Below, piece after piece: positions 7,426 to 41,253 of a stretch of DNA of 41,994 nucleotides. Below the pieces are notes generated by a model that saw only the letters and a list, made by a program, of their open reading frames with translations, had not been told where the DNA came from and did no database searches. The number at the start of each line of letters is the position of its first letter. Positions within the stretch are counted from its first letter, which is position 1. The DNA is taken from positions 1 to 41,994 of IMG/VR virus record IMGVR_UViG_3300033141_002362; one strand, 5' to 3'. A program made the position numbers and the translations under genes. Source of the DNA: a virus.

Positions 7426-9339
7426 TTACCTTATGTTCTTTCCTCTAGCTGTAATTACATTCCTGCCACGAAAGGTTATAAACCTTCTCCATGTTGACCT
7501 TAGGATGTCCATTATAGACTGTTCCGAATCTGCCTGAGATTCACCCGCTGCTGTAACAACTATAAGTTTAGGCTCCTCCCCCGCAACATCATCAGAATAC
7601 CAATATATTCGACCATCTGCATCATTTTCTATCCCTATTCTGAGCCCAAAATTACCGTATGTTGCAATGTGTCCATCTATGTTTTTATATAGGTCTGTTA
7701 TATCTAATGTATCCTTGGTGCCGTTGGCAAAAAGGCTATAACTAAAAGTTTTGGAAATTCCTGCTATATAGTCTCCGCCCGATGAATCAGCACCTGCATT
7801 ATACCAAGCACTATCGGATGAAAGTGAATCATAATTAGCTACACCAGGTCCACCAACTTCAGTACCTTCTGTCCAGTTCCGCCTCAATGGTCTTATTTCA
7901 ACATATCCATTGTCAAAATTACTAATTCCTTCTGCGGGAATCGATAGCACTAGTTCAGCCCTTACAATAGTATCAGCACCAATATCACTAAACTGTATAA
8001 GTGAACGTTTTGAAGCTGCTGCATATATTGTTGTGGCGCCACCATAATTATAAGTAGTTGCTGCCGAATTTATCCATGTAGATTTCGAGCATGTATATAT
8101 GGTTGTGTCTAAATCTTCATAATACTCTACATATAATTTCGGAGGGTCGGTTCCATCATCAGAACACCAATTTACGTCTTCATCACCATCAATATCATTT
8201 CCAACCATCTGTAAATGAAACCCGTTATCAGCATAAACACTATCTGCGCCCCTTATTTTCTTATATAAATCAGTAACATCCAACGAATCCCAGGTGCTTG
8301 CATTAAAGATGTTTGTGTTAAAGGAGAGCGTGTCATTACCATATATATCATTATCCGGGTCTTCTCCTCCTGCTGTAGTCCAGTTACTGCCTGACTTCCA
8401 AGAATTCCACGTTGCCTCTGACTCAACCCAATTCCTACGAAGTAAGCTTATTTTCAGGAATCCATCATCTGCAGTTGTCCCGCCACAATATAACCTTAGT
8501 TCAGCTTTAGTAATAATAGAGTTAGAAGGAATAGAATCTGTATTAAATCTTATCAGACTATTTTGAACTGACGTCCCCACATCATTTCTTATTGAAATTG
8601 CCCCACTAGTTCCATAATTTGTAGTTGGGTTATTATCTATTATTCTTGTAGCATCTGTAGCCGAGCCTTCATCGTGTAATACAGATGGGTCAATATATGT
8701 AGGATAGTTTTTATGATTCACCTCTACAATTAGGGTGTCCTTATTAATACTTACTGAAACAGGCACGGGTGTTTTATCTTTGAGGTATGCATATATCGGT
8801 GTTCTGAATATATCCCCAAATATTATATTATTTCCTTGAAGTTTAAAATCTAGATTACTATCGATAAGCCACTTGTATACAGTCGGTGCACTACTATCCT
8901 TAATTGTAAGAACATTCTTAACACCATGACCAAGTATTTCATAGTCGGATTTAGTGCCTATCCAAAGCTCAGATATAGCTTGATTTTTATATACACTTGG
9001 AGATTTAACAGAAACATTGACAGCGTCATATGCTACATAATTGTTTTCATGTTCCACACGCAAACCCGTAAACCCGTTTTTAAACCTCACCTTAACGGGA
9101 TTCTTTGTAACGGCATAGTTGTATCCATATGCTTCATTAGGCTTTATATTCCTATCAACGGAAATCCATTTATTACCATACTTATAGTTAAGGTTATTCC
9201 CAATAAGTAATCCATATTTACCGCCCTTCTTGCGAAACTTGATTGTATGTCTTCCTCTTGAAATTATCGAGTCTTCCTGACTATACGCTACATTTAGAAT
9301 TGTGAGGAATCCTAAAAGTATTGTGATGTATTTAGGCAT
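7426..9339 (-). CDS. Exported DNRLRE-domain protein, fibre-like
   Basis: 637 residues behind AGGAGG. It starts with a signal peptide: a Lys, a hydrophobic core ITILLGFLTILNVA, and a cleavage site AYS|Q. A beta-rich N-terminal half (to about 220) precedes two related domains, roughly 225-408 and 415-600. Each has the DNRLRE hallmarks: TTNYG or TTYNYGG near the start, 'SLIRF'/'SLIQF', 'KAELRLY', 'LRRNW(V/T)E', 'LDVTDLYK'/'LDITDLYK', and closing '..W.SDD ..PPKLYVEYYE' or 'EEPKLIVVTA'. DNRLRE domains occur in surface adhesins and carbohydrate-binding proteins. A Sec signal is unusual for a virion fibre. Its last 30 residues are basic. Confidence 0.8.
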   Translation of the reverse strand: MPKYITILLGFLTILNVAYSQEDSIISRGRHTIKFRKKGGKYGLLIGNNLNYKYGNKWISVDRNIKPNEAYGYNYAVTKNPVKVRFKNGFTGLRVEHENNYVAYDAVNVSVKSPSVYKNQAISELWIGTKSDYEILGHGVKNVLTIKDSSAPTVYKWLIDSNLDFKLQGNNIIFGDIFRTPIYAYLKDKTPVPVSVSINKDTLIVEVNHKNYPTYIDPSVLHDEGSATDATRIIDNNPTTNYGTSGAISIRNDVGTSVQNSLIRFNTDSIPSNSIITKAELRLYCGGTTADDGFLKISLLRRNWVESEATWNSWKSGSNWTTAGGEDPDNDIYGNDTLSFNTNIFNASTWDSLDVTDLYKKIRGADSVYADNGFHLQMVGNDIDGDEDVNWCSDDGTDPPKLYVEYYEDLDTTIYTCSKSTWINSAATTYNYGGATTIYAAASKRSLIQFSDIGADTIVRAELVLSIPAEGISNFDNGYVEIRPLRRNWTEGTEVGGPGVANYDSLSSDSAWYNAGADSSGGDYIAGISKTFSYSLFANGTKDTLDITDLYKNIDGHIATYGNFGLRIGIENDADGRIYWYSDDVAGEEPKLIVVTAAGESQADSEQSIMDILRSTWRRFITFRGRNVITARGKNIR

Positions 9340-31965: not shown

Positions 31966-31994
31966 AAAATACCGAACATTTGGACAACTGTCAA
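31966..31994 (-). promoter_or_regulatory. Leftward promoter of the late operon
   Basis: Minus strand: TTGACA (31994-31989), 17 bases, TATTTT (31971-31966). The -35 overlaps a short dyad gaca-ac-tgtc at 31983-31992, a possible repressor or activator site. The first late gene starts about 33 bases downstream. Confidence 0.7.
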
Positions 31995-32023
31995 TATATA
32001 CTATATAAAAAATATTTTTTCTA

Positions 32024-32052
32024 TTGACAAAACTATAGGTATTTATTATATT
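32024..32052 (+). promoter_or_regulatory. Rightward early promoter
   Basis: TTGACA (32024-32029), exactly 17 bases, TATATT (32047-32052), followed 35 bases later by the RHH gene. It diverges from the late promoter with about 30 bp between the -35 boxes, so one regulator could control both. Confidence 0.85.
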
Positions 32053-32086
32053 TGTATAAACAATGTATAAACAAGCTTGGAGCATA

Positions 32087-32248
32087 ATGGTTAAGCACAG
32101 TGAACTTATCATTATCAGAATAAACAAAGAACTAAAACGAGAAGTTAAGTTTATATGCAACAAGCTTAATTGTAATATCAGCGAGTTTATCAGAGAACTC
32201 ATAAGAAAAGAACTAAACAAAGGAGCAGAAAATGGCAACTTTCGTTAA
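32087..32248 (+). CDS. Ribbon-helix-helix transcription regulator (53 aa)
   Basis: Start chosen at ATG 32087 because TTGGAG lies just upstream; an ATG at 32063 would be close to the transcription start. The plan is strand (SELIIIRIN), helix 1 (KELKREVKFICNKLN), turn with Asn/Ser (CNISEF), helix 2 (IRELIRKELNKG), which is CopG/Arc-like. It is the first early gene and lies beside the divergent early/late promoters, so it is the best candidate for a switch regulator. No other DNA-binding domain is present. Confidence 0.75.
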   Translation: MVKHSELIIIRINKELKREVKFICNKLNCNISEFIRELIRKELNKGAENGNFR

Positions 32249-32414: not shown

Positions 32415-33010
32415 AATATATACTCAAATATAGTTAATAAATATTAGTAAATTACGTATATAGTATACCACACATTAGTCCACATTAGATTGCATATGTA
32501 TCTAAATCTTTCACTTATGCTCACCCTATGGAAAAATTGTTGACCTATCTTTGTGTGATAATATATATAAGAAAAAAAATCGAAAAGACGCCTATACCCC
32601 TATTCACCCGCTGTATCGCATTATGCTTGCCAAGTTTACATAATGATTCTTATGTGCAATTGTATATCCAATAAAAACAACAACTTGGGACTTTCGATAG
32701 CCAATATGTGTCATATTGTCATAGCAATACAATACATATTCGGCTATATTCGGCTATTCGGGTACACCACATACGGCAATACATATACACACATACCACA
32801 CACACATATATAGAAGTATAGATATATATATATACACATATGCACATATGCGCATATATACATATTTGTCGTTACTGTTATTTCAATCCTTGTTTTCCAG
32901 CGTCATATCGGGGAATTGGGTTTCGCCCCTAGAGTAGTAATATATATACTCTAGGGTCCGGTCTAGATGCCGGGCTTGAGGAATTTTTTTTCATTTTTTT
33001 CATTTTTTCC
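32415..33010. other. Gene-free AT-rich intergenic block; possible origin or leader region
   Basis: About 600 bp without a credible gene on either strand. It holds a hairpin ACATAA/TTATGT (32639-32656), two direct copies of attcggctat (about 32737-32757), a stretch of alternating purine-pyrimidine TA/CA/CG steps around 32780-32870, then a GC-richer block of three candidate hairpins (32905-32973) ending in an eight-T run. The mix of an easily melted tract and inverted repeats between two early promoters is what an origin, or a regulated leader, would look like. Neither is proven. Confidence 0.5.
32927..32956. repeat. Perfect 10-bp inverted repeat
   Basis: CCCTAGAGTA (32927-32936) and TACTCTAGGG (32947-32956) are exact reverse complements with a 10-base AT spacer. 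The left arm's C run can also pair with GGGG/GGG just upstream (32910-32920), so two mutually exclusive hairpins are possible. Confidence 0.85.
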
Positions 33011-33039
33011 TTGACATTCACGGAACTATTGTGTATATT
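33011..33039 (+). promoter_or_regulatory. Strong rightward early promoter
   Basis: TTGACA (33011-33016), 17 bases, TATATT (33034-33039). A T-rich double tract (ttttttttcattttttttcatttttt) lies directly upstream, where an UP-element would be. The gene at 33078 follows behind AAGGAG. Confidence 0.85.
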
Positions 33040-33077: not shown

Positions 33078-33308
33078 ATGAAAGACAAAAAATATTCAAT
33101 CGAAAGTATCACGGGGACGGCGATGGTCTCAAATAAGTATGATGAGGGGGAATTTCCCTCACTTCATGAAGCAATGAAAAGCTTCATGAATGAGGAATTC
33201 TCTTTCATGGATAGTGAGGAGAAAATCCTCTATGACCCGGACGGAAAAATTGTTGCCGTTCGCTGGATAGAGGATGGTTACGAATTTTTTAGCTTGGGGC
33301 GCGACTAG
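33078..33308 (+). CDS. Hypothetical early protein (76 aa)
   Basis: Strong AAGGAG site. The protein is acidic, MKDKKYSIESITGTAMVSNK, then EGEFPSLHEAMKSFMNEEFS, then a beta pair KILYDPDGKIVAVRWIEDGY. No family recognised. The coding DNA is GC-richer than most of the window and contains a perfect 10-bp inverted repeat (33163-33172 with 33181-33190). Its last codons form the left arm of the terminator at 33291-33327, with the stop codon in the loop. First gene behind the promoter at 33011. Confidence 0.75.
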   Translation: MKDKKYSIESITGTAMVSNKYDEGEFPSLHEAMKSFMNEEFSFMDSEEKILYDPDGKIVAVRWIEDGYEFFSLGRD

Positions 33309-33327
33309 CGTCTCAAGCTTTTTTTTT
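33291..33327 (+). terminator. Intrinsic terminator overlapping a stop codon
   Basis: AGCTTGGGGCGC, loop gacta, GCGTCTCAAGCT: a 12-bp stem with two G-U pairs, then nine T. The loop holds most of the TAG stop of the preceding gene. Confidence 0.9.
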
Positions 33328-33518: not shown

Positions 33519-33565
33519 CGGCTATGGTTCAGCGGTACCGGTTGAGTGACCAGTACCGCTTTTTT
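33498..33565 (+). terminator. Tandem hairpins ending in an intrinsic terminator
   Basis: First stem ATAGCCGC/GCGGCTAT (33498-33505 with 33518-33525) spans the stop codon. Second stem AGCGGTAC/GTACCGCT (33531-33538 with 33553-33560) is followed by six T. The linking GCGGCTATGGTTCAGCGGTA looks like a tRNA 5' half (acceptor strand plus D-arm). Confidence 0.85.
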
Positions 33566-33572
33566 CGCAACC

Positions 33573-33608
33573 GCGAAAGATATAATTAATCAAAATGATA
33601 TCTTTCGC
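33573..33608 (+). promoter_or_regulatory. Early leader element, copy 1 (inverted repeat + ATGATATCTTT)
   Basis: GCGAAAGATAT (33573-33583) and ATATCTTTCGC (33598-33608) are perfect reverse complements with a 14-base loop. The right half contains the repeated element caaaatgatatctttc (33591-33606). The ATG in it opens a 10-codon frame (MISFAQTKGE) ending one base before the next gene's ATG. Confidence 0.75.
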
Positions 33609-33628
33609 ACAAACAAAAGGAGAATAAA

Positions 33629-34180
33629 ATGCAAAACAAAGAAAAGCTTAATCTTGTTTCCCCTAGTCGGGGAGAAAAATATACCATCGATGAGATTCTC
33701 CAGAAGGGGCTCGAAAGAGCGGGTCTCATTGTTGAGGAAATAGAAGTCATTGACCACAAAATCACTTGGAATAGAGACGTAGATTTGGCTCTACATATCG
33801 TATTTCACGTATCTGAATCGCAATGGTGCGATTCGGTGAACTTCAAATTTAATGGGGTCATACCGCTGCACATAACCCCAAAAGGAAAAATTTCCATCAG
33901 TTACAAGGCTGAGGGAAGTTCGTCAATCAATCCAGCGGCGCCAAACAAGCCCACTGGAGACGAACGTGTAGGAAAAGGAATAGTTTCCCCTTGTGGAATT
34001 ATGTATTGTTGGGTGGATGGGGAGAAAGACAAGGGCGTGGATATAGAAATAGAGAAAATCATCGAAAATCCTCTATTTCAAAAGATTTTAAATAGGCTAT
34101 TCGCCGAAAGGTTCATAAGTGGTCTGTTTAGTATCGAAAAAAATGAGTGTCTCAACCAGTATGAGGTTGAGATACTTTGA
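33629..34180 (+). CDS. Hypothetical early protein (183 aa)
   Basis: AAAGGAG before ATG 33629. N-terminus MQNKEKLNLVSPSRGEKYTI, a helix (DEILQKGLERAGLIVEEIEV), then beta-rich stretches (LALHIVFHVSESQWCDSVNF, GVIPLHITPKGKISISYKAE, SPCGIMYCWVDGE) and a helical end. I recognise no family. The coding DNA is packed with perfect inverted repeats: GAATCGCA/TGCGATTC at 33815-33834, GAAATAGAG/CTCTATTTC at 34046-34079, and a 12-bp stem with one G-U at 34146-34176. An alternative +strand frame in the first 100 bp is a shadow. Confidence 0.75.
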   Translation: MQNKEKLNLVSPSRGEKYTIDEILQKGLERAGLIVEEIEVIDHKITWNRDVDLALHIVFHVSESQWCDSVNFKFNGVIPLHITPKGKISISYKAEGSSSINPAAPNKPTGDERVGKGIVSPCGIMYCWVDGEKDKGVDIEIEKIIENPLFQKILNRLFAERFISGLFSIEKNECLNQYEVEIL

Positions 34181-34186
34181 GATTAG

Positions 34187-34220
34187 CGGCACTAGTCATT
34201 CGGCTAGTGCCGTTTTTTTT
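34187..34220 (+). terminator. Intrinsic terminator
   Basis: CGGCACTAG, 8-base loop, CTAGTGCCG (34204-34212), then eight T. It follows the 183-residue gene's stop by 6 bases. Confidence 0.9.
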
Positions 34221-34230
34221 CACAATTTGC

Positions 34231-34272
34231 GAAAGATACCATCAAACAAAATGATATCTTTCAAAATGATAT
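34231..34272 (+). promoter_or_regulatory. Early leader element, copy 2 plus partial repeat
   Basis: GAAAGATA (34231-34238) pairs with TATCTTTC (34255-34262). The element caaaatgatatctttc is at 34247-34262, and a second, shorter copy caaaatgatat follows directly (34262-34272). It lies between a terminator and the ribosome binding site of the gene at 34302. Confidence 0.7.
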
Positions 34273-34301
34273 AGTTCACAAAAAAATAAAGGAGCAAAAA
34301 A

Positions 34302-34613
34302 ATGGGAAAAATATATAAAATCTCAATGTATGATGCCCTGAAAAAGGGCGTCAATACTTATCACGAACTAACAGAAAACACGTTAGTTCATTATTCAAGT
34401 CCCCTAATAATAAATTCGGAAAATCCAACAATTAATAGAACAAGTTGGTTTTCCGAACCAATTCAAATTGAATGGACGGGGGACTTCCGTACGTGGATTG
34501 AATTGGCAATTAAATTTTGTGATGAACCGATTCTACACAAAAGCGAAATATATATGTCTGAAAAGTGGATTAGAAAAAGACCACACTGGACTAGATATTT
34601 CAAATTAGTATAG
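34302..34613 (+). CDS. Hypothetical early protein (103 aa)
   Basis: AAAGGAG before ATG 34302. MGKIYKISMYDALKKGVNTY, then beta-like strands, WFSEPIQIEWTGDFRTWIEL, and a Trp-rich basic end (MSEKWIRKRPHWTRYFKLV). No family recognised. The coding DNA holds GAACTAAC/GTTAGTTC (34365-34389) and a near-perfect 14-bp stem (34415-34429 with 34444-34457, one bulge). The stop codon is followed at once by the 11-bp tandem repeat and the tRNA-like minihelix. Confidence 0.7.
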   Translation: MGKIYKISMYDALKKGVNTYHELTENTLVHYSSPLIINSENPTINRTSWFSEPIQIEWTGDFRTWIELAIKFCDEPILHKSEIYMSEKWIRKRPHWTRYFKLV

Positions 34614-34630
34614 CTTGTCTATAGCTTGTC
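34609..34630. repeat. 11-bp tandem direct repeat (2 copies)
   Basis: tatagcttgtc occurs at 34609-34619 and 34620-34630. The first copy contains the TAG stop of the preceding gene; the second provides the 5' acceptor-like strand of the minihelix at 34623-34655. Confidence 0.85.
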
Positions 34631-34655
34631 TAGGTTCAATTCCTAGAACGGGCTA
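34623..34655 (+). ncRNA. tRNA acceptor/T-arm-like minihelix
   Basis: AGCTTGT (34623-34629), CTAGG stem (34630-34634), loop TTCAATT (34635-34641), CCTAG (34642-34646), one unpaired A, ACGGGCT (34648-34654), A. The T-loop fits TTCRANY, the T-stem has 5 pairs, and the outer stem 7 pairs including two G-U. This is the acceptor-plus-T-arm half of a tRNA with D and anticodon arms missing and no CCA encoded. Such minihelices are minimal RNase P substrates, so mRNA 3' processing is one possibility. No T-run follows, so it is not a normal terminator. Confidence 0.55.
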
Positions 34656-34663
34656 TTATTAAA

Positions 34664-34679
34664 CAAAATGATATCTTTT
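34664..34679 (+). promoter_or_regulatory. Early leader element, copy 3
   Basis: caaaatgatatctttt, nine bases after the minihelix. Its ATG opens a 7-codon frame MISFVQA that stops at TAA just before an ATG at 34692. Confidence 0.65.
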
Positions 34680-34697
34680 GTACAAGCATAAATGAAA

Positions 34698-34713
34698 CAA
34701 AATGATATGTTTC
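34698..34713 (+). promoter_or_regulatory. Early leader element, copy 4
   Basis: caaaatgatatgtttc, one base different from consensus, within the small dyad gaaac...gtttc. Its ATG opens an 11-codon frame MICFAQKRSIT whose TGA overlaps the start ATG of the gene at 34734 (ATGA), as in translational coupling. Confidence 0.7.
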
Positions 34714-34733
34714 GCACAAAAAAGGAGTATAAC

Positions 34734-35168
34734 ATGAAACTAAAAGGTCGATATATAGGGGAAAACTGGATTGATGAGGAATTTCTTTTCAATCCAAAGA
34801 TATACAAGCGGGACGGCAAAGTTTACGCTACACGGCGTGGATACGTTCCTTTTGAGATACATCCTGAATCAATCCACTTGGTCCAGGATGTATTGGACGC
34901 TAAAGAAAATGAGCTTGCCAAAAACCGTAAGGAATTCAACAAAATTATAGGAACTATACAAAAAGCCTCATATAGTTCTTATTCAAAAAGGTTTTCAACT
35001 AATGGAGTTCGTCTGTATTTGAAAGATGAATCTCCATTAAGAAAGCTTGGAAAATCTAAAGATGGCAATTTCACTTTTCAAGTAAAAATAACCGGAAGTA
35101 ACGCCCATAAATGGGAAAATTCCGATAGATGGGTATACTTCGGGGAAATAGTAAATATAGGAGGGTAA
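34734..35168 (+). CDS. Hypothetical early protein (144 aa)
   Basis: ATG 34734 behind AAAGGAG is preferred to the in-frame ATG at 34692, which lies in leader elements. MKLKGRYIGENWIDEEFLFN, then KVYATRRGYVPFEIHPESIH, a long helix (VLDAKENELAKNRKEFNKII), and a beta end (NGVRLYLKDESPL, FTFQVKITGSNAHKW, DRWVYFGEIVNIGG). No family recognised. The DNA has ATACATCCTG/CAGGATGTAT (34857-34866 with 34884-34893), GAACTATA/TATAGTTC and TAATGGAG/CTCCATTA. The stop overlaps the Shine-Dalgarno of the next gene. Confidence 0.7.
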   Translation: MKLKGRYIGENWIDEEFLFNPKIYKRDGKVYATRRGYVPFEIHPESIHLVQDVLDAKENELAKNRKEFNKIIGTIQKASYSSYSKRFSTNGVRLYLKDESPLRKLGKSKDGNFTFQVKITGSNAHKWENSDRWVYFGEIVNIGG

Positions 35169-35169
35169 A

Positions 35170-35544
35170 ATGTTTTTTAATATTTCAAATCACCCTAGTT
35201 CAAACTGGAGTGAGAAACAAATTTCCGCTGCTAAAAAACTAAACGGTGAAATAGTTGATATTCCTTTTCCTAATGTCAATCCAAACCTTAACAGTGATGA
35301 TGTTCGGAAATTGGAACAAGATATTTTGGATACAATACGGAAGTTTGTACCCGAAATATCGGGTCATTATTTCATGATACAAGGAGAATTTTCCTTGTGT
35401 TATTATTTGTTTCGGGAAATTTCTCAACTTGATGGTAACATAGTAGTCGCTACTACTGAAAGAAAAGTAATTGAGACCGTTAATCATGATGGGACGGTCT
35501 CAAAGATTACACAATTTAAGTTTGTGCAGTTCAGAAAAATATAA
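35170..35544 (+). CDS. Small Csx15/Csx20-like protein, candidate ring nuclease-type (cyclic oligoadenylate) phage protein
   Basis: 124 residues behind AGGAGGG. The opening MFFNISNHPSSNWSEKQISA is a strand, then an 'N-H-P-S' turn and a helix; IVDIPFPNVNPNLNSDDVRK follows, then HYFMIQGEFSLCYYLFREI, NIVVATTERKVIET and a final QFKFVQFRKI. I recall this order, including 'NHPSSxWSExQ', 'DIPFPxVxP', 'QGEFxLxxxL' and '(T/S)ERxV', from a widespread small Rossmann-like family. I associate that family, from memory and unchecked, with the CARF-like Csx15/Csx20 proteins predicted to be ring nucleases in type III CRISPR loci. A phage version could degrade a cyclic-oligonucleotide alarm. The DNA contains GAGACCGT/ACGGTCTC at 35473-35501. 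Confidence 0.5.
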   Translation: MFFNISNHPSSNWSEKQISAAKKLNGEIVDIPFPNVNPNLNSDDVRKLEQDILDTIRKFVPEISGHYFMIQGEFSLCYYLFREISQLDGNIVVATTERKVIETVNHDGTVSKITQFKFVQFRKI

Positions 35545-35562
35545 AAATAAAGGAGGGCTAAA

Positions 35563-35820
35563 ATGAAAGTAACGAATAATGATTGTACAAGCCGAATTTC
35601 GGCACAAAAAGGCATTCAGCTTGTATCGAAAATTAGCAAAGAATATAAAAACTCCTGTATTCTTTTCAACCCGTATAATTCTGGTGTAGCTGTTATGGTC
35701 GCGTGGAATAATGATTGTGCAGAATGTGAACCTAAAACATGGATTTTTGAATGTATTGGTAAAAATTTTGTTCGCAATATTCCCGGTCATATTCAGATTA
35801 AAACAGGTCGATTTTGGTAA
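35563..35820 (+). CDS. Hypothetical early protein (85 aa)
   Basis: AAAGGAGG before the ATG. MKVTNNDCTSRISAQKGIQL, helix, then strands NSCILFNPYNSGVAVMVAW, a small Cys pair (NNDCAECEP), and WIFECIGKNFVRNIPGHIQI. Cys pair plus Cys8 and Cys later could bind metal, but the pattern is not a known ribbon. The 5' end can form TACAAGC/GCTTGTA. Function unknown. Confidence 0.65.
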   Translation: MKVTNNDCTSRISAQKGIQLVSKISKEYKNSCILFNPYNSGVAVMVAWNNDCAECEPKTWIFECIGKNFVRNIPGHIQIKTGRFW

Positions 35821-35857
35821 AAATAAACAAACAATTACCAAACTTATGGAGGGTAAG

Positions 35858-36226
35858 ATGCAAGTAAAAAGTGATAACAAAACAATTGATATAAGTCATA
35901 TTATCGTTGAAGTAACAAAGTACGATAATGTAACTTATATCGATTTTGGGGCGTATGCAAAAACTATTAGGGGAAAAAAGTATCATCCATGCATGATAAA
36001 CTCTTTCGGTAAACTTGGATTAAGAATAGATTCACTGCACAATTACACAATTTCGCTCATAAAAATTCCAGATAATATATTTTCAAAAGTAAAAATAAAA
36101 GTAGTGAAAAGTCTCACAAGTTTAGATTTTTCGCTACAGGAAATAACTCCATTAATCATTAGAAAAATAAACCATATAACTAATATGGAATATGATATTA
36201 ACAGTTTAAATATGGAGATGAAATAA
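35858..36226 (+). CDS. Hypothetical early protein (122 aa)
   Basis: ATG 35858 is preferred (GGAGGG directly upstream) over the longer frame from 35711, which overlaps the preceding gene by 110 bp. MQVKSDNKTIDISHIIVEVT, then strands TYIDFGAYAKTIRGKKYH, LGLRIDSLHNYTISLIKIPD, VKIKVVKSLTSLDFSLQEIT, and a helical end. Beta-rich, slightly basic; no family recognised. Confidence 0.65.
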   Translation: MQVKSDNKTIDISHIIVEVTKYDNVTYIDFGAYAKTIRGKKYHPCMINSFGKLGLRIDSLHNYTISLIKIPDNIFSKVKIKVVKSLTSLDFSLQEITPLIIRKINHITNMEYDINSLNMEMK

Positions 36227-36255
36227 TTTTTAACCCTAAACAAAAGGAGAATAAC

Positions 36256-36549
36256 ATGAAAAACAAAGAATTAAAGTTTGTAACTGCAGGAGATAGTGAA
36301 CTAATTAGAAGTACAAACAAATTTTTCACTATTGCAAACAAAGAGGATGTTTTAGAACTAAAAAAGAAAATAGTCAACAAAACAACTAAAGGGCTAATTT
36401 ATGACGATAGTTTAACACCATTAGAAAACTGGTTAAAGTTTATTTGCGAATATAATGGATACAAGTTTACCTTGCCGGTGCACACTGAAATTGCAAGTGC
36501 AATTGAAAATAACCGTGAAATTAGAGAATTCGTGCACATGTTAGCCTAA
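36256..36549 (+). CDS. Hypothetical early protein (97 aa)
   Basis: AAAGGAG before the ATG. MKNKELKFVTAGDSELIRST, then an almost entirely helical remainder (EDVLELKKKIVNKTTKGLIY, PLENWLKFICEYNGYKF, TEIASAIENNREIREFVHML). No family recognised. The DNA includes ATAGTGAA/TTCACTAT near the 5' end and a palindromic TTGCA...TGCAA. Leader element copy 5 follows the gene. Confidence 0.65.
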   Translation: MKNKELKFVTAGDSELIRSTNKFFTIANKEDVLELKKKIVNKTTKGLIYDDSLTPLENWLKFICEYNGYKFTLPVHTEIASAIENNREIREFVHMLA

Positions 36550-36570
36550 AACAAAAGAACAAAAACTAAA

Positions 36571-36586
36571 CAAAATGATATCTTTC
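36571..36586 (+). promoter_or_regulatory. Early leader element, copy 5
   Basis: caaaatgatatctttc, immediately followed by AGGAG and then the ATG at 36600, so here the element abuts the ribosome binding site. Confidence 0.7.
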
Positions 36587-36599
36587 AGGAGATACCCTA

Positions 36600-37220
36600 A
36601 TGGAGTGCACAAAAAAACAAAAGTGGTATTTACACGTCTTAACAGGCGTTAATACTTCTAACCTAAAAGTATCAAAAAAAGAATGTAGCCGGTTAATAAC
36701 ACTTTCAAAAATTGACCGTAAAGAGGCAATACGGCAAACAAAAACTGCAGTCCGGGAAAGTGAAAGTATTGCTATTGTTTCAAGGTGGAATATATCTAAG
36801 CTATGGCAAGAATTTTCTCAGGCTAATGCTATACAGATTGAACAAGAGGAGTTTGTTTTTGAGCTTAGAGAATACTACAAGGAAAACCTTGCAAGCAGAA
36901 AACCGCGTATTAATTTAGAAAATCTTTCGTATACTGAACTATTAAAAAAATGTTTTTATCAAGCTATGAAAATAGAGTTTTGGGGCAAACTACTTGAGAC
37001 TATTCGGCAGCCCTTACACTTCCCGGACGGGTTTAACTGGTTTTTTCTTAATGAGCAGGAATTTCAGGAGATTCATAATGAATATGAGCATATGGAAAAT
37101 GAAAAAGAACTAACCGAAATATTAACTAATGTTAAAAACCTTATAGCGAACAATAATAAAGATAGTGCTATTAATATTATTGATAACCTTGTCAATGGTA
37201 TTGATGGTGCGCCGTTTTAA
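36600..37220 (+). CDS. Hypothetical early protein (206 aa), N-terminal 'TxKQ...LTG' module
   Basis: AGGAG before the ATG. The N-terminus MECTKKQKWYLHVLTGVNTS with SKKECSRLITL resembles a short helical module seen at the start of many phage and plasmid proteins ('T-x-x-Q-x-x-x-L-x-x-L-T-G ... S-K-x-E-A-S-x-L-I'). The rest is helical (KLWQEFSQANAIQIEQEEFV, YTELLKKCFYQAMKIEFWGK) with an acidic C-terminal half. No catalytic motif. Function unknown, possibly nucleic-acid-associated. Confidence 0.65.
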   Translation: MECTKKQKWYLHVLTGVNTSNLKVSKKECSRLITLSKIDRKEAIRQTKTAVRESESIAIVSRWNISKLWQEFSQANAIQIEQEEFVFELREYYKENLASRKPRINLENLSYTELLKKCFYQAMKIEFWGKLLETIRQPLHFPDGFNWFFLNEQEFQEIHNEYEHMENEKELTEILTNVKNLIANNNKDSAINIIDNLVNGIDGAPF

Positions 37221-37239
37221 CCAACAAAAGGAGGATAAA

Positions 37240-37371
37240 ATGACGTTCATACAACTTATAAACAATATTATTTTTCTCTTACAAAATCCAGAAAAGATTA
37301 AAGAAACGGACCCTAAAACCATTGAATACTATATTGATATGCTATATGCGTATCAGGAACAGACAAAATGA
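37240..37371 (+). CDS. Small hypothetical protein (43 aa)
   Basis: ATG 37240 behind AAAGGAGG, preferred to an upstream in-frame ATG at 37165 that lies inside the previous gene. MTFIQLINNIIFLLQNPEKI, then KTIEYYIDMLYAYQEQTK. Helical and slightly hydrophobic at the start. Its stop overlaps the next start (ATGA). Function unknown. Confidence 0.6.
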   Translation: MTFIQLINNIIFLLQNPEKIKETDPKTIEYYIDMLYAYQEQTK

Positions 37372-37622
37372 GAAACTATAAACTGTTAACCGTACAAAGT
37401 CAACTTAAGCTCAAGGGTAAACCCGTAAAGGATTATAAATTTGCCATTGAGCTTGAGTATAGGGAAAATAGCCCTCAAAATAATATCTTTTTCCCTAAAG
37501 ATAAACAAATAACAATAGGATTTAAACAAAAGGAGAAGCAACATGAACTTATCATCAGTAATCAAAAGAGAATTAAAAAGTATCTTTCCAAATCAAAAGT
37601 TTTCAGTAAAAACCAGAAATAG
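37368..37622 (+). CDS. Hypothetical early protein (84 aa)
   Basis: ATGA overlap with the preceding stop. MRNYKLLTVQSQLKLKGKPV, strand FAIELEYREN, then a Lys-rich C-terminus. The last ~27 codons overlap the next gene (start 37543) in another frame, so the basic tail may be partly a by-product of that overlap. No family recognised. Confidence 0.55.
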   Translation: MRNYKLLTVQSQLKLKGKPVKDYKFAIELEYRENSPQNNIFFPKDKQITIGFKQKEKQHELIISNQKRIKKYLSKSKVFSKNQK

Positions 37623-37704
37623 TAATATGAGCAGTTCAATTATGAAGCTACAGGAGAAATACTTTCAGGAGCAAATACTTATATTTTTTGTAACCGGAAT
37701 ATGA
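37543..37704 (+). CDS. LPD29-like short protein (53 aa), possibly frameshifted
   Basis: ATG 37543 has a strong AAAGGAG site although it lies inside the preceding frame. MNLSSVIKRELKSIFPNQKF followed by SVKTRN is the start of the small LPD29 domain ('R-x-x-L-K-x-x-F-P-x-x-K-F-S-V'), found in polyvalent phage and plasmid proteins. After about 30 residues the family pattern is lost in this frame. The -1 frame is open over the same bases and continues with FNYEATGEILSGANTYIFC, joining the next small ORF. Either two overlapping genes or one gene split by a -1 shift. Confidence 0.5.
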   Translation: MNLSSVIKRELKSIFPNQKFSVKTRNSNMSSSIMKLQEKYFQEQILIFFVTGI

Positions 37705-37814
37705 GTGATAAAGCTAAAGAGATAATAAAAAGAGAATTAAACTTAAGTATCGAAACACCAGAATGGGAATTAAACAACTTCATTAGAAGAAAATTCAACG
37801 AAACAGATTTATAA
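37701..37814 (+). CDS. Small ORF (37 aa), coupled to or fused with the LPD29-like gene
   Basis: ATG 37701 overlaps the preceding stop (ATGA). MSDKAKEIIKRELNLSIETP, then EWELNNFIRRKFNETDL, helical. The same frame is open 66 bp further upstream, to just after TAA near 37625, and reads sensibly there, so it may be the C-terminal half of the LPD29-like protein. Confidence 0.45.
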   Translation: MSDKAKEIIKRELNLSIETPEWELNNFIRRKFNETDL

Positions 37815-37835
37815 CAAAAAATAAGGAGACATAAA

Positions 37836-37928
37836 ATGTTTGAACTAAAGAATAGTTTCAAATTAGAAACCAACAAAAGAACAGCAAACATAAATCTTAA
37901 ACTAAACAAAATGATATCTTTAATGTGA
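37836..37928 (+). CDS. Micro-ORF (30 aa) containing leader element copy 6
   Basis: ATG 37836 behind AAGGAG. MFELKNSFKLETNKRTANIN, LKLNKMISLM; the last codons are the repeated element itself. After TGA 37926-37928 the same frame continues open for 32 codons to a Cys-rich segment (GICCTKCGELTK), so readthrough or an old stop mutation is conceivable. Confidence 0.4.
   Translation: MFELKNSFKLETNKRTANINLKLNKMISLM
37907..37922 (+). promoter_or_regulatory. Early leader element, copy 6
   Basis: caaaatgatatcttta, inside the end of the micro-ORF at 37836-37928 and in the same frame as it. Confidence 0.6.
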
Positions 37929-38025
37929 GAAATACTATTATTAACACTAATAAACTTCAGAAAAATTAATAGTAAGGAGGTCTACACAGAAGATGGTATA
38001 TGCTGTACGAAATGCGGGGAACTAA
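37929..38025 (+). other. Remnant with a Shine-Dalgarno site and zinc-knuckle-like fragment
   Basis: AAGGAGGTCTACA (about 37974-37986) closely resembles the AGGAGGTCTACC before the gene at 38071, but the ATG 12 bases later opens only 10 codons. One other frame reads VYTEDGICCTKCGELTK, a metal-knuckle-like fragment with no start. This looks like a decayed small gene. Confidence 0.35.
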
Positions 38026-38041
38026 CAAAATGATATCTTTA
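38026..38041 (+). promoter_or_regulatory. Early leader element, copy 7
   Basis: caaaatgatatcttta. Its ATG opens a 14-codon frame MISLNPNKPIGGLP whose TGA overlaps the ATG of the RHH gene at 38071 (ATGA). Confidence 0.7.
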
Positions 38042-38070: not shown

Positions 38071-38220
38071 ATGAAGAAAAGAATTAACCTGTATCTTGAA
38101 AACAAAATTACCGATAGCGCCAGAGAAAAACTTTCAAAAAATCCAGTTCAAAGAAGTTTATCATCATTAATTGAGGAGCTTCTCTGGAAATGGGCAAACC
38201 AAAAAACAGAAGGAGAATAA
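38071..38220 (+). CDS. Ribbon-helix-helix-like small protein (49 aa)
   Basis: ATG 38071 behind AGGAGG. A basic strand (KKRINLYLEN), helix 1 (KITDSAREKLSK), a turn (NPVQRSLS) and helix 2 (SLIEELLWKWAN) follow the CopG/MetJ plan. It is the third RHH-type protein of the window and lies near the end of the early operon. Probable DNA-binding regulator; target unknown. Confidence 0.6.
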   Translation: MKKRINLYLENKITDSAREKLSKNPVQRSLSSLIEELLWKWANQKTEGE

Positions 38221-40423: not shown

Positions 40424-40531
40424 AATCGATTCCTATATTATAGATATTACTTATGTAATATTGGTATACACCCCATTTGGCTGTATTACATTATTACATA
40501 TTACATTATGACAAAACAGTAAACAAAAAAG

Positions 40532-40571
40532 TGTCATAATGTAATACAAAAAACTGTATGACATTATGACA
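40532..40571. repeat. 40-bp imperfect palindrome, copy 1
   Basis: TGTCATAATGT, one mismatch, ATAC, 8-base centre, GTAT, one mismatch, ACATTATGACA: arms of 16 bases differing at one position. Confidence 0.85.
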
Positions 40572-40600
40572 AAAATCAGGGGAATAAAAATTAGGTTTTT

Positions 40601-40640
40601 TGTAATAATGTAATACAAAAAGTTGTATGACATTATGACA
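40601..40640. repeat. 40-bp imperfect palindrome, copy 2
   Basis: TGTAATAATGTAATAC, 8-base centre, GTATGACATTATGACA: same unit as copy 1 with one extra change. The start-to-start distance between the copies is 69 bp. Confidence 0.85.
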
Positions 40641-40668
40641 AATAACGATGGTTTGTTTACCATTGGTT

Positions 40669-41253
40669 TTAACTTTCTGGATTCAAATCTTTAACGTAAA
40701 TATCATTAATTTTTTGGTATTTTCTATCAACAGTTTCGGCAAGTCTATGTTTGTTTTTCATAGTGCTTTTTATGATTCTATCACTAATATCAATTGCCTC
40801 TCGCTCTAATCTGTTCTTTTCCTCTTCATACCCAATAGTGTTTAACTGGTCAAGAATCCTACAAACCTCTTGCCATTTTTTATAATATTTGTTTGATTTA
40901 TCCTTGTGAATATACATCAAAACATACACTCCAGCCGCCATACAACGCCTATACAGGTTGCTCATTGAATCTTTATAGAATGACGATGGGAATATCTTAG
41001 TCAGCGATAGTATCATATTCTTAAATACAGACCGACATCTAAACTGTATATTATCGTTTCTAGAATATTTCTCACCGCCTGAAATTCCATACATCATGTA
41101 TTCCATAACTGAATCTTTGAATTTAATCGATTCAGCCTGTAGTTGCTGAACCTGAAGTTTAAGCTTTTCATTTTCCCGTTTAAGCTCTGATATCGTTTCA
41201 TTTTCCTTTTCTTCAAATATGTAAACCTCAGAATCTTCACTAACTTTTTTCAT
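40669..41253 (-). CDS. Coiled-coil protein of unknown function
   Basis: 194 residues behind AAGGAG. The first ~45 residues are acidic and coiled coil (ENETISELKRENEKLKLQVQ), as in leucine-zipper-like segments. The middle is helical with a basic patch (NIQFRCRSVFKNMILSLTK, MSNLYRRCMAAGVYVLMYIH), and the end is charged. No catalytic motif. It lies upstream of the palindromic repeats; a DNA-binding or replication-accessory role is conceivable but unsupported. Confidence 0.6.
   Translation of the reverse strand: MKKVSEDSEVYIFEEKENETISELKRENEKLKLQVQQLQAESIKFKDSVMEYMMYGISGGEKYSRNDNIQFRCRSVFKNMILSLTKIFPSSFYKDSMSNLYRRCMAAGVYVLMYIHKDKSNKYYKKWQEVCRILDQLNTIGYEEEKNRLEREAIDISDRIIKSTMKNKHRLAETVDRKYQKINDIYVKDLNPES

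Follow-up and report, generated by a model that had tools for sequence, protein, structure and literature searches.

A repeated gene-front element, probably a promoter of non-sigma-70 type, in a phage without close known relatives

An element repeated in front of early genes

In the IMG/VR virus record IMGVR_UViG_3300033141_002362 (41,994 bp, all of it analysed and called the window below), a 15-nucleotide sequence, CAAAATGATATCTTT, recurs on one strand in front of the small genes of a rightward block. It is a real, orphan, phage-specific gene-front element and, to judge from its sequence and setting, probably a non-sigma-70 promoter or the core of one. The more specific view favoured here, to which I would give a probability of about 0.45, is that it serves as a phage-specific transcription-start element, not of the sigma-70 type, for short units of genes that lie behind terminators. 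The block (plus strand, 33.08-38.47 kb) is called early by its position only, and nearly all of its small genes are without family matches.

A scan of the whole window finds six exact copies of CAAAATGATATCTTT, at 33591, 34247, 34664, 36571, 37907 and 38026, and three near copies, with one mismatch at 34698 and at 37476 and two at 34262. An earlier note on this DNA had listed seven positions and a partial copy at 34262, all of them correctly, and had missed one, the copy at 37476 (CAAAATAATATCTTT, within the open reading frame (ORF) 37368-37622). It had also placed every copy in the early region, on the plus strand, and that is where they are: allowing up to two mismatches, there are nine sites on the plus strand between 33001 and 38500, none on the minus strand, and none elsewhere on either strand. 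The nine span 33.59-38.04 kb, and all lie on the coding strand.

Chance does not produce such a set. The commonest 15-mer in dinucleotide shuffles of the window reached two copies in 192 of 200 shuffles, one in seven and three in a single shuffle, and sites in the early region within one mismatch number 8, against a shuffled mean of 0.005. The signal fades at three mismatches, where the 11 sites in the window are unimpressive (shuffle mean 6.6, with 11 reached in 4 of 100 shuffles). Among 171 fetched loci (1.37 Mb, not a random sample), a 15-mer that is not of low complexity occurs in four or more copies at only three, with a maximum of five.

Following the numbering of the earlier note, which leaves out 34262 and 37476, copy 1 (33591-33605) stands before gene 33629, together with an inverted arm at 33573-33583, the whole occupying 33573-33608. 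Copy 2 (34247-34261) is adjoined by the degenerate copy 34262-34276 and has its own arm at 34229, so that the array 34229-34276 precedes gene 34302. Copies 3 (34664-34678) and 4 (34698-34712) both precede gene 34734, by 55 and 21 nt. Copy 5 (36571-36585) lies 14 nt before gene 36600, and a Shine-Dalgarno (SD) sequence, AGGAG, starts one base after it. The additional copy (37476-37490) is 52 nt before gene 37543, copy 6 (37907-37921) is in the last part of the 30-codon ORF 37836-37928, and copy 7 (38026-38040) is 30 nt before gene 38071. Two pairs are thus in tandem, 34247/34262 and 34664/34698, and in both the degenerate copy is the one closer to the gene.

Column counts over the copies define a conserved block A-N2-AAA-CAAAATGATATCTTT, with A at -6, AAA at -3 to -1 and an abrupt end at +14; the AAA is not kept at 34262 and 37476. 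The repeat is best read as one compact DNA element, some 18-21 bp long. Beyond the core, likeness varies with the pair compared, copies 1 and 2 resembling each other upstream and copies 1 and 4 downstream. That is what one might expect if the element were a patch of homology, or a junction, between early genes swapped as cassettes, with no regulatory work to do, and by eye the ORFs near 37.84-38.03 kb do look truncated. The sharp, uniform core, the diverged flanks and the placement in gaps close to SD sequences look instead like selection for a site, and I consider recombination a very unlikely explanation.

Position relative to genes and terminators

The element avoids coding sequence and keeps to the longer gaps. 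Of the nine copies, seven lie entirely outside coding sequence, compared with 549 of 5,374 15-mers (10%; binomial 3.5e-6), and the five gene gaps that contain the element measure 50, 110, 120, 121 and 142 bp, while the ten without it are all 37 bp or shorter (Mann-Whitney p 3e-4); these counts rest on my gene list, which assumes a frameshifted gene at 37543-37814 and the 30-codon ORF that holds copy 37907. The element itself explains part of the difference in gap length: with it removed, the gap before gene 36600 would be 35 bp. The gene at 37543-37814, LPD29-like by a match below the cut-off, appears by eye to be split by the frameshift, its second half lying in another frame; sequencing error, pseudogene and programmed shift are not distinguished.

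The earlier note described nearly all copies as just upstream of a ribosome binding site. This holds for 33591, 34262, 34698, 36571 and 38026, where 14-30 nt separate the end of the element from the ATG, and fails for the other four. At 34247 and 34664 the distance is 40 and 55 nt, with a degenerate copy between each and its gene, and the remaining two are 37476 and 37907.

Copies 1-3 stand directly 3' of hairpins, all on the plus strand. A terminator-like hairpin with a T run at 33531-33565 (-18.0 kcal/mol, z -3.4; not listed by the terminator scan) precedes copy 1, another at 34185-34220 (z -8.5) precedes copy 2, and one with a poor T tail at 34621-34656 (fold z -4.65) precedes copy 3. The last contains CTAGG-TTCAATT-CCTAG, which has the shape of a tRNA T-arm, and is possibly a tRNA remnant; no tRNA was predicted.

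A proposed start element for genes behind terminators

None of the copies is a promoter of the familiar kind. A sigma-70 promoter (TTGACA/TATAAT, 16-18 bp apart) was looked for at the element and rejected, with no site at any copy. The element has no -35 hexamer and offers only a weak, extended -10-like sequence, TGATATCTT. Across the five gaps with the element, top sigma-70 scores do not rise above those of shuffles, whereas the sites at 33011 and 32024 score 11/12. Terminators lie upstream and no other promoter candidate recurs in the gaps, which makes the element the best candidate for the restart of transcription.

I propose that transcription of the first genes of the rightward block would begin at the strong sigma-70-like promoter 33011-33039 (plus strand, 11/12), that terminators would then end it, and that the genes behind them would be switched on by a form of RNA polymerase with altered specificity, initiating at or just past the element. 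Such a form might be the host polymerase carrying an alternative factor or one from the phage, or else a polymerase not detected in the contig. It is a further and unlikely step that the site belongs to a phage factor of transcription (or translation) so far unrecognised, showing no detectable likeness to known sigma factors and polymerases, and that it defines a regulon apart, made of short early units insulated by terminators, in an otherwise unsampled lineage.

Several observations weigh against this proposal. A strong terminator at 33291-33319 is followed by gene 33345 with no element, which speaks against any strict rule joining terminator and element, and the copies at 37476 and 37907 are located in ORFs. 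No sigma factor or RNA polymerase domain turned up in the contig, which may be incomplete: there was no match to PF04542, PF00623 or PF04545, and the lack of a match to PF00940 is uninformative, its control having been silent too. At copy 5, where the SD begins one base past the element, a start 7 nt 3' of the -10 box would lose part of the SD, so initiation would need to be at the element's 3' edge. These last two points, on the undetected factor and on the SD, are the chief weaknesses. Finally, the earlier note had suggested a search of related genomes, and the searches described below gave none with repeated copies.

The earlier note had also thought of an operator. A repressor or an activator made by the phage, such as a small ribbon-helix-helix (RHH) protein, might bind the element at several units in the manner of stoperators. 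Candidate binders are present: the gene at 32087-32248 (plus strand) matches RHH_1, a CopG-type family, above the Pfam cut-off (E 1.3e-4), and the small gene directly behind copy 7, at 38071-38220 (plus strand), encodes a possibly RHH-like protein that matches DUF6364 below the cut-off (E 0.0032), its structure model being of low confidence. The imperfect dyad AATGAT/ATCTTT (5 of 6) could serve such a protein. The dyad is weak, however, and a near-palindrome needs no fixed orientation, yet all nine copies point the same way. Fixed orientation favours a promoter or an RNA element over a palindromic operator, and I regard an operator as quite unlikely. In front of the RHH_1 gene, at 31980-32087, divergent sigma-70-like promoters separate it from the leftward structural block, and this is likely a regulatory switch region. 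Farther on, 32415-33000 is some 600 bp without a convincing gene, in which AT/CA dinucleotide runs are abundant by eye.

Does the element act in RNA?

An element that keeps one orientation and comes so close to an SD, within 1 nt at copy 5, might work in the messenger. It could be a single-stranded target, 14-55 nt ahead of the start codon, for a binding protein (of phage or host), a small RNA or a cutting nuclease, and could tune the translation or stability of several early mRNAs jointly. The tandem copies and the hairpins at copies 1 and 2 fit such a site. The sequence GCGAAAGATA stands exactly 18 bp 5' of both of these copies and pairs with both, through 11 of 11 consecutive pairs at copy 1 (fold z -4.7) and 8 of 11 at copy 2. 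Elsewhere the arm pairs at 8 of 11 positions for copy 3 and 7 of 11 for 37476, the other five giving 4-5 against a null of 4.7. The hairpin is therefore clear in only two of nine copies, and an RNA hairpin as a general feature of the element was rejected on that count. Also speaking against the RNA reading, the copy nearer to the gene is the degenerate one in both tandems, odd if nearness to the SD matters, and no Rfam family scores above gathering, all matches being sub-threshold. An RNA-level leader seems to me somewhat unlikely. Between the suggestions of the earlier note, promoter or operator fares better than RNA-binding site, given the order terminator, element, gene, the long gaps, the fixed orientation and the lack of a sigma-70 promoter.

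The note had gone on to describe the element as holding the start of a mini-ORF, possibly one of a family of coupled leader peptides (MISF... in copy 1). Three frames do end at or overlap the start of the next gene, as it said, but 3 of 9 is what chance provides: when a frame is opened at every position 20-40 nt ahead of each of 15 genes, 94 of the 315 frames stop within 3 nt of the gene's start. A SD run of at least 5 nt precedes none of the nine element ATGs and 15 of 16 early genes. The mini-ORFs run from 2 to 25 codons, and conservation extends alike over the untranslated side (the AAA before CAAA) and third codon positions. The arm does pair at copies 1 and 2, but folding predictions put the ATG mostly within the base pairs of a small apical stem, not free in the loop as had been claimed. 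The ATG is not a credible start, and speaking of a mini-ORF misleads. Coupled leader peptides were rejected, and I give them almost no credence.

Comparison with known systems

Repeated gene-front elements are the means by which several phages build their own regulons, and this one is not categorically new in kind, though it is moderately interesting. Single-subunit phage RNA polymerases such as that of T7 read promoters that are near-identical, contiguous blocks of about 20 bp, present in many copies on one strand. The element is likewise such a block, in many copies on one strand. It differs in having no initiating run of G, and no such polymerase was detected in the contig, a weak test with a silent control.

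The nearest published pattern is that of the start-associated sequence (SAS) of cluster K mycobacteriophages. In two reports (PMC11373665, PMC12699233), the SAS is a 13-bp asymmetric repeat with 11-19 copies, almost all pointing the same way. They are limited to the non-structural half of the genome, sit just before start codons and favour genes with an upstream gap of more than 50 bp. About half have an upstream inverted repeat (extended SAS, or ESAS), and ESAS of Adephagia contain putative SigA promoters according to the later study. The present element is likewise asymmetric, in one orientation, and placed at gene fronts with large gaps in a non-structural region, with two of its nine copies in ORFs. 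The upstream arm of copies 1 and 2 recalls the extended form, with the reservation that it is clear in two of nine copies rather than about half. Nearly all the positional features are shared; the sequence differs, and so does the relation to the SD. The SAS, GGGATAGGAGCCC, includes the SD (AGGAG) and lies 3-9 bp from the start, whereas CAAAATGATATCTTT is unrelated, lies 14-55 nt from it, and has its SD separate and downstream. Furthermore, no sigma-70 hexamers are found at the element, and there is no sign of a mycobacterial phage. In the reports consulted, what the SAS does is still described as unknown or ill-defined, and an element with the SD outside it provides an independent case that separates the two readings, ribosome binding site and regulatory site, that the SAS confounds.

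Two other systems show what such repeats can do. In the halovirus HF2, nine cloned copies of intergenic repeats were all active as promoters in reporter tests (PMC8707807). The likeness lies in repeated noncoding sequences before genes in a virus without its own RNA polymerase; the HF2 repeats are archaeal promoters of 58 and 29 bp with B recognition element (BRE) and TATA motifs, and their sequence is unrelated. For the sigma factor of phiEco32 the recognition site is one 9-bp block, TAATGTATA, which its recurrence in intergenic regions can reveal (PMC4331800). The blocks of phiEco32 and of 7-11 resemble the element in being compact, AT-rich and single, in having AATG at their core and in standing before several phage genes. 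They differ in that phiEco32, with its 9-bp consensus, encodes its sigma factor, and none was detected here. By this precedent, one AT-rich block can be enough for a phage sigma factor.

Relatives

This is, by sequence comparison, a phage without close known relatives in the records covered, from which those most similar to the window may be absent. Scans of viral_contigs with single proteins found no relative through terminase, helicase, capsid or portal, and a two-row terminase alignment found two loci that are 25-26% identical and in which no 15-mer is repeated. In the database 'phages', tblastn gave terminase relatives at 27% identity or less and distant helicases, and nothing for the capsid, the portal or the protein of gene 36600.

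The exact 15-mer occurs in at least 119 stretches of viral_contigs, with one match each among the 80 listed, and the 18-mer in 8 stretches of viral_contigs and 38 of genome_contigs, again with one match per listed stretch; the matched stretches are about 1-15 kb, and farther copies on the same contig could escape. Many of the viral matches lie in recurring contexts that by eye resemble coding chance. Among the checked loci other than the window, the 11-mer CAAAATGATAT occurs twice in only three and three times in none. In open-licence PMC full text, the core AAAATGATATCTTT is in no relevant paper, its sole match coming from the plant literature. For a phage so little charted, the element offers a compact motif that can be tested. 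The viral loci L017 and L130 have a different 15-mer, ATAAAGGAGAAAGAA, in four copies (in L130 as its complement TTTCTTTCTCCTTTA, offset by roughly one base); it contains an SD and may be another gene-front element.

Other features of the window

The record includes genes for a terminase, portal, helicase and SU10-type capsid, Sak4-like and exonuclease genes, a holin and an endolysin. The endolysin, of cell-wall-hydrolase type, the strong AAAGGAG SD sequences and the TTGACA promoters suggest that the host is a bacterium, but the methylase at 1031-2317 is most like those of the archaeal viruses phiH, Blf4 and Drs3. The region 7426-9339 encodes a repeat of CBM96/disaggregatase type in this endolysin-bearing phage. 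Between the helicase gene and the gene at 40669-41253, direct and inverted repeats (TGTCATAATGTAATACA / TGTATGACATTATGACA) cluster at 40474-40646, a candidate operator or replication origin.

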